Below, in pieces: positions 8,536-52,410 of a DNA stretch of 64,000 bases; within the stretch, counting starts at the first letter, position 1, and the number at the start of each line of letters is the position of its first letter. Both the position numbers and the translations under genes were made by a program. Location: NCBI RefSeq assembly GCF_016862895.1, contig NZ_BONV01000007.1, positions 1-64,000 of the forward strand, in the 5' to 3' direction. The notes under the pieces were generated by a model. It was given only the letters and a program-made list of their open reading frames with translations, made no database searches and was not told the origin of the DNA. The stretch comes from Planotetraspora kaengkrachanensis (GTDB lineage Bacteria > Actinomycetota > Actinomycetes > Streptosporangiales > Streptosporangiaceae).

Positions 8536-9234
8536 ATGAACGCGAGCCGTACCGCCAGAGAGCGGGTCCGAGCGGAGCTGATCCGGGAGATCACGGACAT
8601 CGCGCGCCGCCGGCTCGCGACGGAGGGAGCGGGCGGGCTGTCGCTCCGCGCCGTCGCCAGGGACATGGGGATGGTGTCGTCGGCGATCTACCGGTACTTC
8701 CCGAGCCGCGACGACCTGCTGACGGCACTGATCATCGACGGGTACAACGCCATCGGCGAGGCCGTGGAGACCGCCGACGCGGCATGCGCGCGAGACGACT
8801 TCACCGGGCGCTGGCTGGCCGTCTGCCATGCCGTACGAACCTGGGCCCTGGACCACCCCCACGAGTACGCCCTGCTGTACGGCTCGCCGGTGCCGGGCTA
8901 CCAGGCGCCGGAGGACACGATCGGCCCGGCCTCCCGGGACACGATGGTCTACGGGCGGATCATCTCGGAGGCGCAGGCGGCGGGCCGGCTGAATCCGCCC
9001 GCCATGTGCCCGGCTCCCCCCGGGCTGCTGTCGTCCGACGCCGACGCGGTGCGCAGTGTCATGCCCGGCGTCTCCGACGACGTGGTGGCGCGGGGCGTCG
9101 TCGCCTGGACCGGACTGTTCGGAATGGTGAACTTCGAGCTGTTCGGCCAGTTCAACAATGTGATCAGACACCGGAGGGAGCTTTTCGAGCACAACATGCT
9201 CTGCCTGGCCGCCCTCCTCGGCCTCCCCGCGTGA
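8536..9234 (+). CDS. TetR/AcrR-family transcriptional regulator
   Basis: A 232-residue regulator. The N-terminal helix-turn-helix is clear (GGLSLRAVARDMGMVSSAIYRYFPSRDDLL, about residues 35-64) and is followed by a ligand-binding C-terminal domain of the WHG type (HPHEYALLYGSPVPGY). Three palindromes just upstream probably mediate autoregulation and control of the divergent operon. The reading frame ends exactly in the first unit of a 53-bp repeat array: the stop TGA at 9232-9234 is part of GTGATCATGCAC. The ligand is unknown. Confidence 0.9.
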   Translation: MNASRTARERVRAELIREITDIARRRLATEGAGGLSLRAVARDMGMVSSAIYRYFPSRDDLLTALIIDGYNAIGEAVETADAACARDDFTGRWLAVCHAVRTWALDHPHEYALLYGSPVPGYQAPEDTIGPASRDTMVYGRIISEAQAAGRLNPPAMCPAPPGLLSSDADAVRSVMPGVSDDVVARGVVAWTGLFGMVNFELFGQFNNVIRHRRELFEHNMLCLAALLGLPA

Positions 9235-9461
9235 TCATGCACAGGTTCGGGATCATGCCCGCCGACCTGCCTCACCACTGGGGGTGATCATGCACAGGTT
9301 CGTGGAGAAGGATACCGACCAGCCCGAACGCCGTCCGTGATCATGCACGGGTTCGGGCAAACCCCGTTTCACCTGCGATCACGCGCATCGTGATCATGCG
9401 CGAATTCGGCGGCCGGCCGTTCAGCCCGGGGAAACGAACTTCGTGATCATGCAGAGAAGGC
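9231..9461 (+). repeat. 53-bp tandem repeat array, plus-oriented arm (5 units)
   Basis: Units beginning GTGATCATGC start at 9231, 9284, 9337, 9390 and 9443, exactly 53 bases apart. Units 1 and 2 share GTGATCATGCACAGGTTCG; unit 4 has GTGATCATGCGCGAATTCG. Similarity extends beyond the core (for example a CCGACC block near unit position 33). TGATCA is self-complementary and the core interlaces a TGA stop with an ATG two bases later. Every complete unit in this arm is open for 16 codons from that ATG to the next unit's TGA. The first TGA is the stop codon of the TetR gene. Function unknown. Confidence 0.9.
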
Positions 9462-9490
9462 GGCACCCCGGCATGGGAGTGCCGCCTTCT
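9455..9490. terminator. Terminator-like hairpin between the repeat arms
   Basis: A 12-bp perfect stem (9455-9466 with 9479-9490, AGAAGGCGGCAC paired to GTGCCGCCTTCT) and 12-base loop, without a U-tract. It lies between the two oppositely oriented repeat arms and between convergent genes. Confidence 0.65.
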
Positions 9491-9522
9491 GCGCTTCGAC
9501 CACCACGCGTCACCGCCGACCG

Positions 9523-9827
9523 CGCGCCGGGCGGATCCTGCTCAGCCCGGCGATTGGCCATCACTGCGCGATCACGAACACCGTCGCTGCAGGTCAGCGC
9601 GCATCTTCACGAATTCGTGCATGATCACGACCGGGGTTTTCGCAAGTGGGTCGGCATGTCGCCGAATTCGTGCATGATCACGCACAGTGTTCGGGCTGGT
9701 CAACGTCCTTATCCACGAACCTGTGCATGATCACCTCCAGTGGTGGCGCTGGTCGGCGCGCATGTCCACGAACCTGTGCATGATCACCCCAGGAGGCCTC
9801 ACACCCAGAAGGTCTGTGCATGATCAC
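9523..9827 (-). repeat. 53-bp tandem repeat array, minus-oriented arm (6 units)
   Basis: On the minus strand, units begin at 9827, 9787, 9734, 9681, 9628 and 9575. The last five are exactly 53 bases apart; the leuA-proximal one is a shortened 40-base unit. The 9575 unit is decayed (GTGATCGCGCAG). The 9787, 9734, 9681 and 9628 units each encode a 16-codon open frame ending at the next core (the 9628 frame ends at the TGA of the decayed unit). Unit 9787 most resembles the outermost plus-arm unit and unit 9734 the second, so the arms look like inverted copies in the same outside-to-inside order. Confidence 0.88.
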
Positions 9828-9841
9828 GCCCAGGGGGGCGG

Positions 9842-11611
<1,770 letters not shown>

Positions 11612-33442: not shown

Positions 33443-33658
33443 AGTGTACGGCCACGGCTCACGGGGTGCGATAACACAGACGATGCCATGGACAGACCAC
33501 CAGGTGATCGCCCTTATGCCACAAGACTGAAATACCCGCTTCCTGAGGTCCGAGCCCGATCGCGGCATCTCGTTGCGCGCCCCGTGATCCGCGCCCCGTG
33601 ATCCGGAGCACCCGCGACCGCACGCCGCGCACGCCCGCCGTTTGCTAGCGTTCCCGGC

Positions 33659-34471
33659 ATGTACGGGCAGGACGTGCTTTCCGGAGACTGGCGGCGCCCC
33701 CGGCGGGGGCAGATCCCCAAGGTCCCCGCGGAACCCGACCTCGTCGTCGAGGACGCGGAAGGCCGCTTCTGCGGCGCCGTCGTGGCCTGTGACAAGGAGG
33801 CCGTGACACTGGAGGACCGGTTCGGGCGGCGGCGCGTCTTCCCCCTCGCCCCCGCCGGGTTCCTCCTTGACGGCAAGCCGGTGACGCTGGTGCGGCCCGC
33901 CGCCGCGCCCCAGGGCGCGAGGCGGAGCGCCTCCGGCTCCATCGCGGTGGAGGGCCTGCGCGCCAAGGTGGCGAGGGAGAGCAGGATCTACGTCGAGGGC
34001 GTGCACGACGCCTCCCTCGTCGAGAAGATCTGGGGCCACGACCTTCGCGTGGAAGGCGTGGTGGTCGAGTTCCTCGAAGGCGTCGACGATCTGCCCGCCA
34101 TCGTGGCGGAGTTCGCCCCAGAACCCGGCAGGCGCCTGGGGGTGCTGGTCGACCATCTCGTGCCGAGCTCCAAGGAGAGCAGGATCGCGGCCCAGGTGAC
34201 CGGGGACCACGTGCTGATCGTGGGACACCCGTACGTGGACATCTGGCAGGCGGTCAAGCCGGCGGCCCTCGGCATCGAGGAGTGGCCGGACGTCCCTCGC
34301 GGGATCCCGTGGAAGGAAGGCGTGATCGCCGCCCTGGGCTGGCGGATGGACCCGCAGGAGGCGTGGCGGCACATCCTCGGGCGGGTCGAGACCTTCGCCG
34401 ACCTCGAGCCTCAGCTCCTCGGACGCGTCGAAGAGCTGATCGACTTCGTCACCGCCCAACCCCCCGCGTGA
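33659..34471 (+). CDS. DUF3097 family protein
   Basis: A 270-residue protein matching the actinobacterial DUF3097 family from MYGQDVLSGDWRRP through VEGVHDASLVEKIWGHDLR to VETFADLEPQLLGRVEELIDFV. The VEGVHDASLVEKIW stretch and the DHLVP acidic motif recall a TOPRIM-like fold, so a nucleic-acid role is possible but unproven. It is divergent from hrcA and convergent with hemW. Its stop TGA (34469-34471) is embedded in the first unit of a 53-bp repeat array. Confidence 0.85.
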   Translation: MYGQDVLSGDWRRPRRGQIPKVPAEPDLVVEDAEGRFCGAVVACDKEAVTLEDRFGRRRVFPLAPAGFLLDGKPVTLVRPAAAPQGARRSASGSIAVEGLRAKVARESRIYVEGVHDASLVEKIWGHDLRVEGVVVEFLEGVDDLPAIVAEFAPEPGRRLGVLVDHLVPSSKESRIAAQVTGDHVLIVGHPYVDIWQAVKPAALGIEEWPDVPRGIPWKEGVIAALGWRMDPQEAWRHILGRVETFADLEPQLLGRVEELIDFVTAQPPA

Positions 34472-34645
34472 TCATGCACACCTTCGGCCGGAGGCGGCCC
34501 GACCGGCGCGAACCCTCGCCGTGATCATGCACGCCTTCGGCGACATGGCGCCCGACCGGCGCAAACCCTCGCGGTGATCATGCACGCCTTCGGCGACAGC
34601 CTGCCCGACCTGCACAGAAACCATCTGTGATCATGCACGCACCGG
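34468..34645 (+). repeat. 53-bp tandem repeat array at the DUF3097-hemW junction (4 units)
   Basis: GTGATCATGCAC starts at 34468, 34521, 34574 and 34627, each exactly 53 bases apart. The first three are followed by A/GCCTTCGG-type bases; the fourth is cut off by the hemW end at 34646. Each complete unit encodes a 16-codon open frame (MHTF..., MHAFGD..., MHAFGD...) closing at the TGA of the next unit. It belongs to the same family as the array at 9231-9827 but has a single orientation and no central hairpin. Confidence 0.9.
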
Positions 34646-35866
34646 CTACGGCGTCAGGTCCCGGACCAGGGCGTCGGCGAGCAGCCGTCCGCGCAGGGTG
34701 AGCACGGCCTGCCCCCGCTTGAACGGCTCCACCTCGAGCAGGCCGTCCCCCAGCGCCCTGGCGCACGCCGTACGCGCCTGCGGGGGCAGATCGGACAGCG
34801 GGAAGCCGGACGCGAGCCGGAGCTCCAGCATGATCCGCTCGACCGCACGGTCCTCGGCGGTCAGCTCCTCCCTGGCGTGCCCGGGAGAGGTCCCAGAGGC
34901 CAGGCGGGACGCGTACGCCGCCGGATGCTTGACGTTCCACCAGCGGGTGCCGCCGACGTGGCTGTGCGCTCCGGGGCCGACGCCCCACCAGTCACCGCCG
35001 GTCCAGTAGAGCAGGTTGTGGCGGCAGCGGGCGTCCTGTTCGGCCGCCCAGTTGGAGACCTCGTACCACTCCAGACCGGCGGCCGAGAGCATCTCCTCCG
35101 CGATGAGGTAACGGTCGGCAGCCACGTCGTCGTCGGGCATCGGCAGTTCGCCGCGGCGGATCCGCGCGGCCAGCCGGGTGCCGTCCTCGACGATCAGCGA
35201 GTAGGCCGAGACGTGGTCGGGTTCGGCCGCCAGGGCCGCCGCCAGCGAGTCGCGCCAGTCGTCGTCGGTCTCCCCCGGCGTGCTGTAGATCAGGTCCAGG
35301 TTGACGTGGTCGAACCCGGCCTTCCTCGCCTCCCGTACGGCCTGCTCCGGCCGGCCCCGGGTGTGCCTGCGGTCGAGCACCCTGAGCACGTGCTCGCTGG
35401 CGCTCTGCATGCCGAAGCTCATCCGGGTGAAGCCGCCCTCCCGGAGTTCCTCCAGGTAGGCCTGGTCGACCGACTCGGGATTGGCCTCGGTGGTCACCTC
35501 GGCGCCGGGCGCGAGGCCGAATTCGTCGTCGATCGCACGGAGCAGCCGCACGAGGTCGGCCGCGGGCAGCAGGGTCGGCGTTCCCCCGCCGAAGAACACG
35601 GTCTCCACGGGCAGGGCGGCATCCCCGAGCACGCGCCTGGCGAGCCGCACCTCGTCGATCGCCGTCGCGGCGTAGTCGCGCTGTGACGCCCCCTGGCCGA
35701 GCTCGGCGGCGGTGTAGGTGTTGAAGTCGCAGTAGCCGCACCGCGTGGCGCAGAACGGGACATGCACGTAGAAGCCGAACTGACGTGAACCGAGCCCGTC
35801 GAGCGCCGACTGCGGCAGGCCGCCGGACGCGGGGACGGGATCGCCGTCGGGAAGAGCGGAAGGCAC
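34646..35866 (-). CDS. hemW: HemW-like radical SAM protein (coproporphyrinogen III oxidase-like)
   Basis: A 406-residue radical SAM protein. The cluster motif is VPFCATRCGYCDF (about residues 33-45), followed by FFGGGTPTLLP and the C-terminal HemN_C domain. HemW proteins are haem chaperones rather than oxidases; the family was formerly annotated as hemN. The GTG at 35866 (MPSALPDG...) directly follows GGAGGT and matches the usual actinomycete N-terminus. Confidence 0.92.
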   Translation of the reverse strand: MPSALPDGDPVPASGGLPQSALDGLGSRQFGFYVHVPFCATRCGYCDFNTYTAAELGQGASQRDYAATAIDEVRLARRVLGDAALPVETVFFGGGTPTLLPAADLVRLLRAIDDEFGLAPGAEVTTEANPESVDQAYLEELREGGFTRMSFGMQSASEHVLRVLDRRHTRGRPEQAVREARKAGFDHVNLDLIYSTPGETDDDWRDSLAAALAAEPDHVSAYSLIVEDGTRLAARIRRGELPMPDDDVAADRYLIAEEMLSAAGLEWYEVSNWAAEQDARCRHNLLYWTGGDWWGVGPGAHSHVGGTRWWNVKHPAAYASRLASGTSPGHAREELTAEDRAVERIMLELRLASGFPLSDLPPQARTACARALGDGLLEVEPFKRGQAVLTLRGRLLADALVRDLTP

Positions 35867-50413: not shown

Positions 50414-50450
50414 GGCGTCACTCCGGTTCACTGCCCTTCCGGGAACGGCT

Positions 50451-51722
50451 TCACGAGCGGTTCGCCGCCGTTCCGGGCACGGCTGCTTCACGACCGGTTC
50501 GCGGCCGTTTCGGGACGGCCGCATCCGGCTGGGCGGGGACGTCCGCGGGCCCGCCCTCGTGATCCGTACGGGCGCGGACGTCGGGCAGGGCGAGGACGGC
50601 CAGGTTGGCCGTGGCGACGAGCACCGCGGCGGTGAGCAGCGGGATCGCGGTCCCCGTCCAGGCGGCGAGCGGAGCCGCGACGGCGAGGCCGAGTGGGCGC
50701 GCCACGAACGAGATCAGCGCGTCGAACGACCCGACCCGGCCGAGCGCCTCCTGCGGGATCCGCTGCTGCATGATGGTTTCCCACAGCGGGATCAGCAGGC
50801 CGAGGCCGAACATCGCGACGAAGTAGGCGCACGCGACCACGACGAGCGGCGCCGGAATCGACAGTGCGGCCAGCGGGACGGCATAGAGAGCGGCTGAGGC
50901 GCTGGTCACAGCCAGCGGCCGGGCGATCGGAAGCCTCGGCGTGAGGAGCACGCCCGCGACCGTCGCCACGGTGCCGGCCTGGGCGATGACGATCCACGCG
51001 GACTCCCCGCCCAGGCTGCGCACGGCGATGACGGGGCCGAGGGTGAGCAGGAATCCCGCGCAGAGGTGCCAAACGCCGTGACCGAGCACGCTGGTGAGGA
51101 ACCACCGGTGGCGCCTGGCCTCGCGCCAGCCCTCATGCAGGTCGGTCAGGAAGCGCCGCCGGGTACCACTGGGCACGGACGTGACGATCCCGCCCAAGGT
51201 GAGAGCCGAGCCGGCGAACAGCACCCCCGTGATCACGAACGACCAGCCCGCTCCGGCCCAGAGGGTGAGCCCTCCGGCGAGGGCGGGTCCGCCGATCTGG
51301 GCGAATCCGTTGACCATTCCCAGCCGCGCGTTGAGCTGGAGCCTCCCCTCGGGCGGGGCCACCCCCACGACCAGTGGTGACACGGCCGGAATGCCGAACG
51401 CCACGGCCACGCCGGTCAGCGCGGCGAGTCCGGCGATCTCGCCGACCGAGGGATCACCGAGGAGAAGCCTCGCGCCGATCACCGTCTGGGTCGCGCATCG
51501 CGCGAGGTCCGCGACGAGGATCACGCGTCTCGGCGGCAGCCGGTCCGCCAGCACCCCGCCGATCGGCAACAGCAGCACCATCGGAATCGTTTCGGCGGCG
51601 AGGACGATGCCGAGATCGACGGCCGAGCCCGTGGCCCGGATGACGGCGAGCGTCAGCCCGGTGGGGATGAGCGCGGTGGCCAGAGCGGCGACCGCCCGGC
51701 CGATGAGTAGTCGAGCAATCAT
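50451..51722 (-). CDS. MFS transporter, drug-efflux-like
   Basis: A 423-residue major facilitator protein with about twelve helices. The loop 2-3 motif is GGVLADRLPPRRVILVADL, typical of MFS carriers, and LPIWET-like and FVARPLG segments occur in the second half. The C-terminal 50 residues are hydrophilic. It is divergent from a MarR gene with an operator-like element between, an arrangement common for regulated efflux pumps. The substrate is unknown. Confidence 0.85.
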   Translation of the reverse strand: MIARLLIGRAVAALATALIPTGLTLAVIRATGSAVDLGIVLAAETIPMVLLLPIGGVLADRLPPRRVILVADLARCATQTVIGARLLLGDPSVGEIAGLAALTGVAVAFGIPAVSPLVVGVAPPEGRLQLNARLGMVNGFAQIGGPALAGGLTLWAGAGWSFVITGVLFAGSALTLGGIVTSVPSGTRRRFLTDLHEGWREARRHRWFLTSVLGHGVWHLCAGFLLTLGPVIAVRSLGGESAWIVIAQAGTVATVAGVLLTPRLPIARPLAVTSASAALYAVPLAALSIPAPLVVVACAYFVAMFGLGLLIPLWETIMQQRIPQEALGRVGSFDALISFVARPLGLAVAAPLAAWTGTAIPLLTAAVLVATANLAVLALPDVRARTDHEGGPADVPAQPDAAVPKRPRTGREAAVPGTAANRS

Positions 51723-52320: not shown

Positions 52321-52410
52321 GGTTCGGCGGCTCAGCGGTTCGGCTGTTCAACGGCGCAGCGGTCCAGCGGCGCAGCGGTCCAGGGCTCAGCGGTCCAGGG
52401 CTCAGCGGCC
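52321..52410. repeat. Short degenerate tandem repeat, 15-16-bp units
   Basis: GGCGCAGCGGTCCAG occurs at 52353 and 52369, and GGCTCAGCGGTCCAG at 52384 with a partial copy at 52399; earlier units are diverged. The array fills the gap between the convergent MarR and holA genes and enters the last codons of holA. Confidence 0.75.

Follow-up and report, generated by a model that had tools for sequence, protein, structure and literature searches.

Phased 53-bp repeat arrays between genes of Planotetraspora and related genera: putative sites for a sequence-specific factor

Dispersed repeats of bacteria are often explained as mobile palindromes, whereas in the family described here the length and the core of the repeated unit are kept and the DNA in between changes. 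Several described systems come close to this family. REP, BIME and REPIN elements, according to Di Nocera et al. (PMC3733652), share with it the many short dispersed copies, the head-to-head pairs, the hairpins and the lineage-specific types as well as the placement between convergent or same-direction genes, near the stops, and only rarely between divergent genes; in the same report, REPs of the CGTC type are described as having no dedicated RAYT, unlike those of the GTAG type. MIRUs, likewise, are intergenic tandem units, and one of their length classes is 53 bp (PMC4213456); they are described as inserting at the start codon of a gene, to which an ORF inside the MIRU is then coupled (PMC12548453). 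Some of the units described here similarly overlap the stop codon of a gene. Bidirectional intrinsic terminators are matched by the central hairpin that lies between two convergent stops in the DNA analysed here. DNA uptake sequences combine a short core with dialects and inverted pairs.

The window, that is, the whole stretch of 64,000 nucleotides that was analysed, belongs to an 8.77-Mb genome of Planotetraspora (Streptosporangiales, Streptosporangiaceae), denoted G000 below. All eleven units that the initial annotation had placed between a TetR-like gene and leuA, five on the plus strand and six on the minus strand, one of them decayed, are present at the coordinates given there, and the junction is convergent as described (Table 1). 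The minus-strand starts from 9575 to 9787 are 53 apart, and the one at 9827, which the annotation had listed separately, is 40 from its neighbour. For the TetR-like ORF, the NCBIfam match is weak at best (NF050111, at 21 bits where the cut-off is 250); the leuA ORF matches TIGR00970 at 883 bits over the cut-off. With up to one mismatch allowed, GTGATCATGC has 22 matches in the window, the second array included, compared to 3.62 expected, and none of 100 shuffled windows reached this number. The second array, the hairpin between the two arms (-33.3 kcal/mol for 9440-9500, z -4.71) and a second conserved block within the unit had all escaped the earlier description. The second array, with four cores in a single arm, comes after an unassigned ORF (33659-34471) that stops inside the first core and is followed by the HemW gene on the minus strand (34646-35866). 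About 900 bp before this array, at 33576-33605, there are two copies of the 14-base sequence CGCGCCCCGTGATC, which has GTGATC in common with the core. TRF detected further tandem repeats in the window, with periods of 37 bp (50423-50519) and 15 bp (52353-52408).

Table 1. Features of the focal locus and the second array in the window
Feature	Position	Strand	Remark
TetR-like regulator gene, upstream of plus arm	8536..9234	+	ORF; NF050111 weak
Plus arm core 1, GTGATCATGC	9231..9240	+	TetR-like gene stop TGA (9232-9234) within
Plus arm core 2	9284..9293	+	
Plus arm core 3	9337..9346	+	
Plus arm core 4	9390..9399	+	
Plus arm terminal core	9443..9452	+	truncated after GTGATCATGCA
Central hairpin between arms	9455..9490	.	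15-nt arms, 93% complementary; terminator-like in either direction
Minus arm innermost core	9566..9575	-	decayed to GTGATCGCGC
Minus arm core	9619..9628	-	
Minus arm core	9672..9681	-	
Minus arm core	9725..9734	-	
Minus arm core	9778..9787	-	
Minus arm gene-proximal short unit	9818..9827	-	40 spacing; 15 bp from leuA stop
leuA, 2-isopropylmalate synthase, upstream of minus arm	9842..11587	-	stop 9842-9844; start codon uncertain
Second array, one arm, four cores at exactly 53	34468..34636	+	convergent junction

The search of the complete genome and its relatives that the initial annotation had called for identified the focal locus as one member of a genome-wide family (counts refer to whole genomes, and positions to the matches listed). 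The 12-mer GTGATCATGCAC is present in 652 copies in G000, where the reversed control pattern has none; the counts in the five Planotetraspora genomes are 652, 165, 231, 623 and 698, and each of the 55 other genomes in the same sample has at most 6. A restriction of the element to this genus was considered and dropped because arrays with the same period turn up in other genera. A 395-kb contig of G000 (C2) contains 3 copies of GTGATCATGCAC versus approximately 29 expected from the genome mean, indicating that the arrays are unevenly spread over the genome.

The period of these arrays is nearly fixed. Among the 411 spacings of 51 to 54 between exact cores on the same strand in the Planotetraspora samples, with each context counted once, 397 are exactly 53, nine are 52, three are 54 and two are 51. 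In addition, there are eight spacings of 106 and one of 105, with a decayed core in between, and twelve shorter ones, of 17 to 40, lengths that gene-proximal units can have. The spacing had been claimed to be invariant; this holds for the 397 spacings of 53 and fails for the 14 of 411 that are 51, 52 or 54. Strict invariance is contradicted also by the P. silvatica copy of the focal locus, which includes one 52-bp unit, and by one genus in which 52 is common, and free variation of the spacing in other copies was not seen either. Neighbouring cores on opposite strands, within 220 bp, face inward in 48 cases and outward in one; the distance is 25 in nine of the inward pairs and 78 (25 + 53) in five.

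The consensus of 429 units consists of GTGATCATGCACAGGTTCG, about twelve variable bases, CTGACCTGCGC, a weaker AC + C, TTC and the next core, so that each unit contains two conserved blocks, GTGATCATGCACaGgTTCG and CTGACCTGC. An arm usually ends in a core that breaks off after GTGATCATGCA, beyond which the sequence is unrelated; there are loci where a hairpin follows and loci where the 80 bases counted from this core are no more stably folded than shuffled sequences.

To what extent length is conserved independently of sequence can be seen in the comparison of G000 with its congener G003, in which orthologous links were defined by cores aligned without gaps at no more than one mismatch. Of the 46 links, 43 are ungapped, 53 to 53; the other three involve a mis-paired short unit, the gain of a whole unit, and a short unit opposite a full one, and none of these contains a small indel inside a full unit. 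The identity between the two genomes is 0.991 in the core, 0.564 at positions 20-31 and 0.677 over all non-core positions, compared to 0.802 at fourfold sites in genes. Alignable intergenic DNA has 0.142 indels per substitution, a ratio at which the 598 spacer substitutions in the 43 units, ungapped ones by construction, predict approximately 85 indels. In 13 of these 43 units, the non-core identity is at most 0.60, roughly one standard deviation or less from that of unrelated units (0.527, sd 0.075), so these may have been replaced rather than mutated, which weakens the expectation of about 85 indels. Units within one arm resemble each other scarcely more (0.552) than units from different loci do (0.527); the equal lengths are therefore not explained by homogenisation. 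The proposal that selection acts on length or phase is supported by the 397 of 411 spacings at 53 and by the 43 of 46 links that remain ungapped despite 32% non-core substitution. A fixed spacing kept by selection, one of the features of a phased protein-binding array, was found, and there is good support for reading the repeats as phased recognition sites on which selection acts; helical phase may be the reason why the spacing matters.

The near-fixed period, the conserved blocks and the fast-changing DNA between them are accompanied by species-specific tails across loci. In G001, which is 84% identical to G000 over 150 kb, tail positions 11-12 are AG, not AC, in 33 of 34 units, with the full AGAAGT in 24, whereas AG is found at these positions in 3 of the 114 units from G000, G003 and G002 combined. 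Six G000/G003 units from three loci have a G001 partner with a spacer identity above 0.65, up to 0.88, 0.65 being the highest value in a background derived from 14 G000 units; the tail differs from that of G001 in all six, so the tails changed in place at several loci. Such dialects would be expected if a co-evolving trans-acting factor had shifted its preference, and to judge from the sequences, they point to a factor of this kind.

Three further genera of the family have the same period and the second block, with changed cores or tails. In G085 (genus g80), the core is GTGATCATGCACAggTTCCCG and the spacings are 53 (40 cases), 52 (18), 54 (3) and 51 (2); in two genomes of g55, GTGATCTTGCA is joined to a tail of the CTCGCA type (spacings of 53 in 30 cases and of 52 in one); and G143 (g86) has GTGATCTTGTAGTTTGTCGCA (14 spacings of 53, three of 54 and one of 52). 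The pattern GTGATC-N47-GTGATC occurs 582, 697, 164, 657 and 669 times in the Planotetraspora genomes G000 to G004, respectively, 444 times in G085, and 51 and 220 times in the two g55 genomes; among the 15 genomes of g86, four have 45 to 163 copies, one has 9 and ten have 0 to 3. The other 318 genomes of the family have 0 to 10, a few chance matches included, that is, by this pattern, arrays were not found in most of the family.

Ten of the 394 genomes in a class-wide sample have more than 20 copies of GTGATCWTGCA, namely, G000 (787), G373 (414), G432 (328), G579 (108), G491 (90), G143 (78), G371 (45), G414 (35), G399 (27) and G670 (22), and no more than 15 were counted in any of the other 384. 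In this sample, the double pattern with its 53-bp period is frequent only in G000 (566) and G143 (21), with 5 copies in G432. In the other families, the core, a possible homologue, is followed by tails of a different kind and frequently occurs in close inverted pairs. In 200 kb of G432, 30 of 33 copies follow a gene of their own strand, compared to 5 of 20 in 200 kb of G373, so the rule on position does not hold generally. The count of GTGATCATGCA is 328 in G432 and zero in its congener G388, which makes the two a suitable pair in which to look for the factor. A stretch of G373 (L242-L251) contains the 23-base repeat GTGATCATGCAATCCCGCCACCC, with a suffix identical in 19 of 20 copies, which follows C-rich DNA and is antisense to the gene behind it in 15 of 20 cases. 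At L176 and L190, inverted pairs starting with GTGATCATGCA enclose TTGTCCACAG or its complement, a sequence that resembles a DnaA box.

Among the alternatives to a binding-site array, the one that survives best is a REP- or MIRU-like family that spreads or duplicates and is tolerated between genes, its equal lengths resulting from the copying of whole units, by some enzyme or by recombination in 53-bp steps. Copy number indeed changes by whole units between species, occurrence is patchy, as in the pair of G432 and G388, and the placement at gene ends with avoidance of divergent junctions is as reported for REPs by Di Nocera et al. (PMC3733652). The age of the loci argues against such spread: arrays are present at all 12 array loci of G000 that were aligned in G003, which has one array absent from G000, and at all 4 loci in range in G001, which has 3 that G000 lacks, so the array loci are old and stable. 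Tails that differ where the spacers are recognisably orthologous are also at odds with it. The marked reduction in P. phitsanulokensis (G002) appears to be a loss: the matching 400 kb contain 23 exact cores versus 74 in G000, and among 13 loci with several cores in G000, exact cores are missing at two, reduced in number at ten and equally numerous at one. Given that G002 is closer to G000 (93.7% identity) than G003 is (91.3%; G002-G003, 92.0%), the shrinkage is most simply explained by loss on the G002 branch.

The search for a mobiliser yielded a mixed picture. Y1_Tnp (PF01797) is present in the array-bearing genomes G001, G060, G109, G143, G167 and G171, in line with a mobile family, and had no match in the array-bearing G000, G003, G002, G085, G165 and G170, nor in G432, G491, G579 and G373. 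Within g86, PF01797 was thus matched in genomes with arrays (G143, G167) and without (G091, G122, G173), and likewise had no match in genomes of either kind (G165 and G170 with arrays, G163 and G164 without). A RAYT/Y1 transposase as the mobiliser was accordingly rejected, being missing from the genome of the window and showing no link to the arrays in g86. A parent transposon between inward arrays was rejected as well: no transposase family was identified in eight ORFs from eight of the eleven inward intervals of 0.5-3.5 kb, all of them ordinary except two that had no Pfam match. The repeat has no match in plasmids, and two single exact matches were found in viral contigs; with no match in plasmids or Rfam and no Y1 in this genome, the possibility raised at the outset that the units are fragments of a known transposon was not borne out. 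Overall, we consider a tolerated mobile or duplicating family rather unlikely.

The arrays are absent from genes and nearly absent from divergent junctions. Across five sets of contiguous tiles (approximately 1.98 Mb, genes from our own codon-based caller), 19 of 86 convergent junctions with a length of 150 bp or more contain arrays, as do 39 of 306 tandem and 2 of 196 divergent junctions in this length class (Fisher p vs divergent, 4e-9 for convergent and 4e-7 for tandem); among shorter junctions, the numbers are 1 of 222, 4 of 858 and 0 of 109, respectively. None of 272 chained cores lies inside a gene. In a sample of 122 arms, biased because 82 came from loci picked by an exact 19-mer, 85 follow a gene of their own strand. 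The stop codon is in the first core in 21 of these sense arms, the core starts no more than 44 bases away in 50 and further away in 11, and 3 overlap the gene. The 37 arms behind a gene start are 51-169 bases (28), 47-48 bases (2), at most 15 bases (6) or 621 bases (1) away from it. Orientation of the arms by transcription was considered and dropped: those at convergent junctions are sense by construction, and those at tandem junctions are 39 sense and 31 antisense (p 0.40). No tRNA was detected beside two antisense arrays in the two stretches scanned.

The convergent enrichment compared to divergent junctions and the symmetric arms would also be compatible with sites for a topoisomerase or a nucleoid-associated protein whose role would be to relieve or confine supercoiling where genes converge, and in E. 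coli, gyrase acts at BIMEs. A universal enzyme does not fit the patchy distribution in g86 or the tail dialects of congeneric species, which makes this explanation improbable.

An RNA element of 3' untranslated regions, either repeated motifs or a long two-arm hairpin, is suggested by the many arms within tens of bases of stops, by the stops inside the first core, and by the focal locus itself, for which a single long hairpin is predicted (z -23.9 from 20 shuffles). The arm-to-arm spacer pairing at this locus (0.67) ranks fourth of 44, and over all 44 pairs, spacer complementarity is 0.560 for facing arms and 0.537 for swapped arms, a difference so weak that the deep fold is due above all to the identical cores in inverted orientation. 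Of the 30 top-ranking couplings in 429 units, no distant pair has a clear pairing excess, and the leading ones join neighbouring bases. RNAalifold on 36 units pairs near-invariant cores only, with double changes in 0 of 9 pairs, and this invariance of the cores is evidence neither for nor against RNA pairing. A conserved RNA structure of the unit or of the paired arms was therefore rejected for lack of covariation and for weak pairing; the unit looks like a linear recognition motif, not an RNA fold. As, in addition, 31 of the 70 tandem arms are antisense and Rfam has no match to the repeat, we regard an RNA element as quite unlikely.

DNA uptake signals kept abundant by biased transformation would account for hundreds of copies, dialects and frequent inverted pairs at terminator-like sites, and are highly improbable given that the uptake sequences of Neisseria and Haemophilus are common inside genes, that none of the 272 chained cores here is, and that a strict 53-bp array would not be expected.

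We tentatively prefer, at a chance somewhat short of even and judging from sequence comparison, the reading of the arrays as rows of putative sites for a sequence-specific factor, perhaps marking boundaries between transcription units. The sites would follow one another at a distance of approximately five helical turns (53 bp) and make up either a single arm or two arms that face one another over the interval between transcription units, in many cases with a hairpin in the middle. The factor would read the core GTGATC[A/T]TGC with the clade-specific tail just after it and probably also the second block, CTGACCTGC. Both orientations of the arms at tandem junctions, together with the lack of RNA covariation, suggest that it would be a protein acting on DNA; its bound copies would lie on one face of the helix, and the complex may function as a two-way boundary, that is, a roadblock, a terminator aid or a supercoil barrier. 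The protein-binding array proposed in the initial annotation stays putative: the two-block motif without covariation, the tail dialects and the inward arms speak for it, and no binding protein was found. A short Rho paralogue was tried as the factor. Planotetraspora, G085 and g86 have two Rho-like genes, the shorter of which (about 409 aa in P. mira) is located between inward-facing arrays (L106:5923-7149); it was rejected because all 15 g86 genomes have two Rho-like matches, with arrays or without, and each array-bearing g55 genome has one, so there is no co-distribution with the arrays. Against the preferred reading, the position bias, taken by itself, is compatible also with a neutral repeat that stays out of promoters and genes; arrays can be lost, as in G002; and most of the family lacks them by the GTGATC pattern.

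The more specific version of this reading, a boundary system in which an architectural DNA-binding protein on five-turn-phased sites in facing arms seals transcription units and co-evolves with its sites, is possible and, in our estimate, doubtful. If true, genes would be sealed from the readthrough or torsion of their neighbours, and hundreds of loci would change dialect together. The concerted tail differences between congeneric species offer a natural setting in which to look for a DNA-binding factor and to trace how its sites evolve, and the array-bearing and array-free species within one genus make the search for the factor feasible.

No account of this element was found in the literature among the matches listed. 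Compared to the known systems, the 53-bp arrays resemble REPs by position, and the other REP-defining features tested were not found. REPs and REPINs are palindromes of 20-40 bp that carry GTAG or CGTC as a tag, and by inspection the 53-bp consensus has neither tag; the unit is not a simple palindrome, a long one arising only where two arms meet, and the arrays combine a near-strict period with a second block in a genome that has no Y1 family. Unlike DNA uptake sequences, the chained cores are only intergenic and are phased at 53 bp. From MIRUs, the arrays are set apart, by description, in that 20 of 308 convergent junctions hold them, where no downstream start exists, and in that the arms face inward in pairs and the units are highly diverged. 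Unlike bidirectional terminators, the arrays come in addition to the hairpin and consist of a periodic motif of specific sequence. They possibly represent an unusual phased boundary element between bacterial genes.
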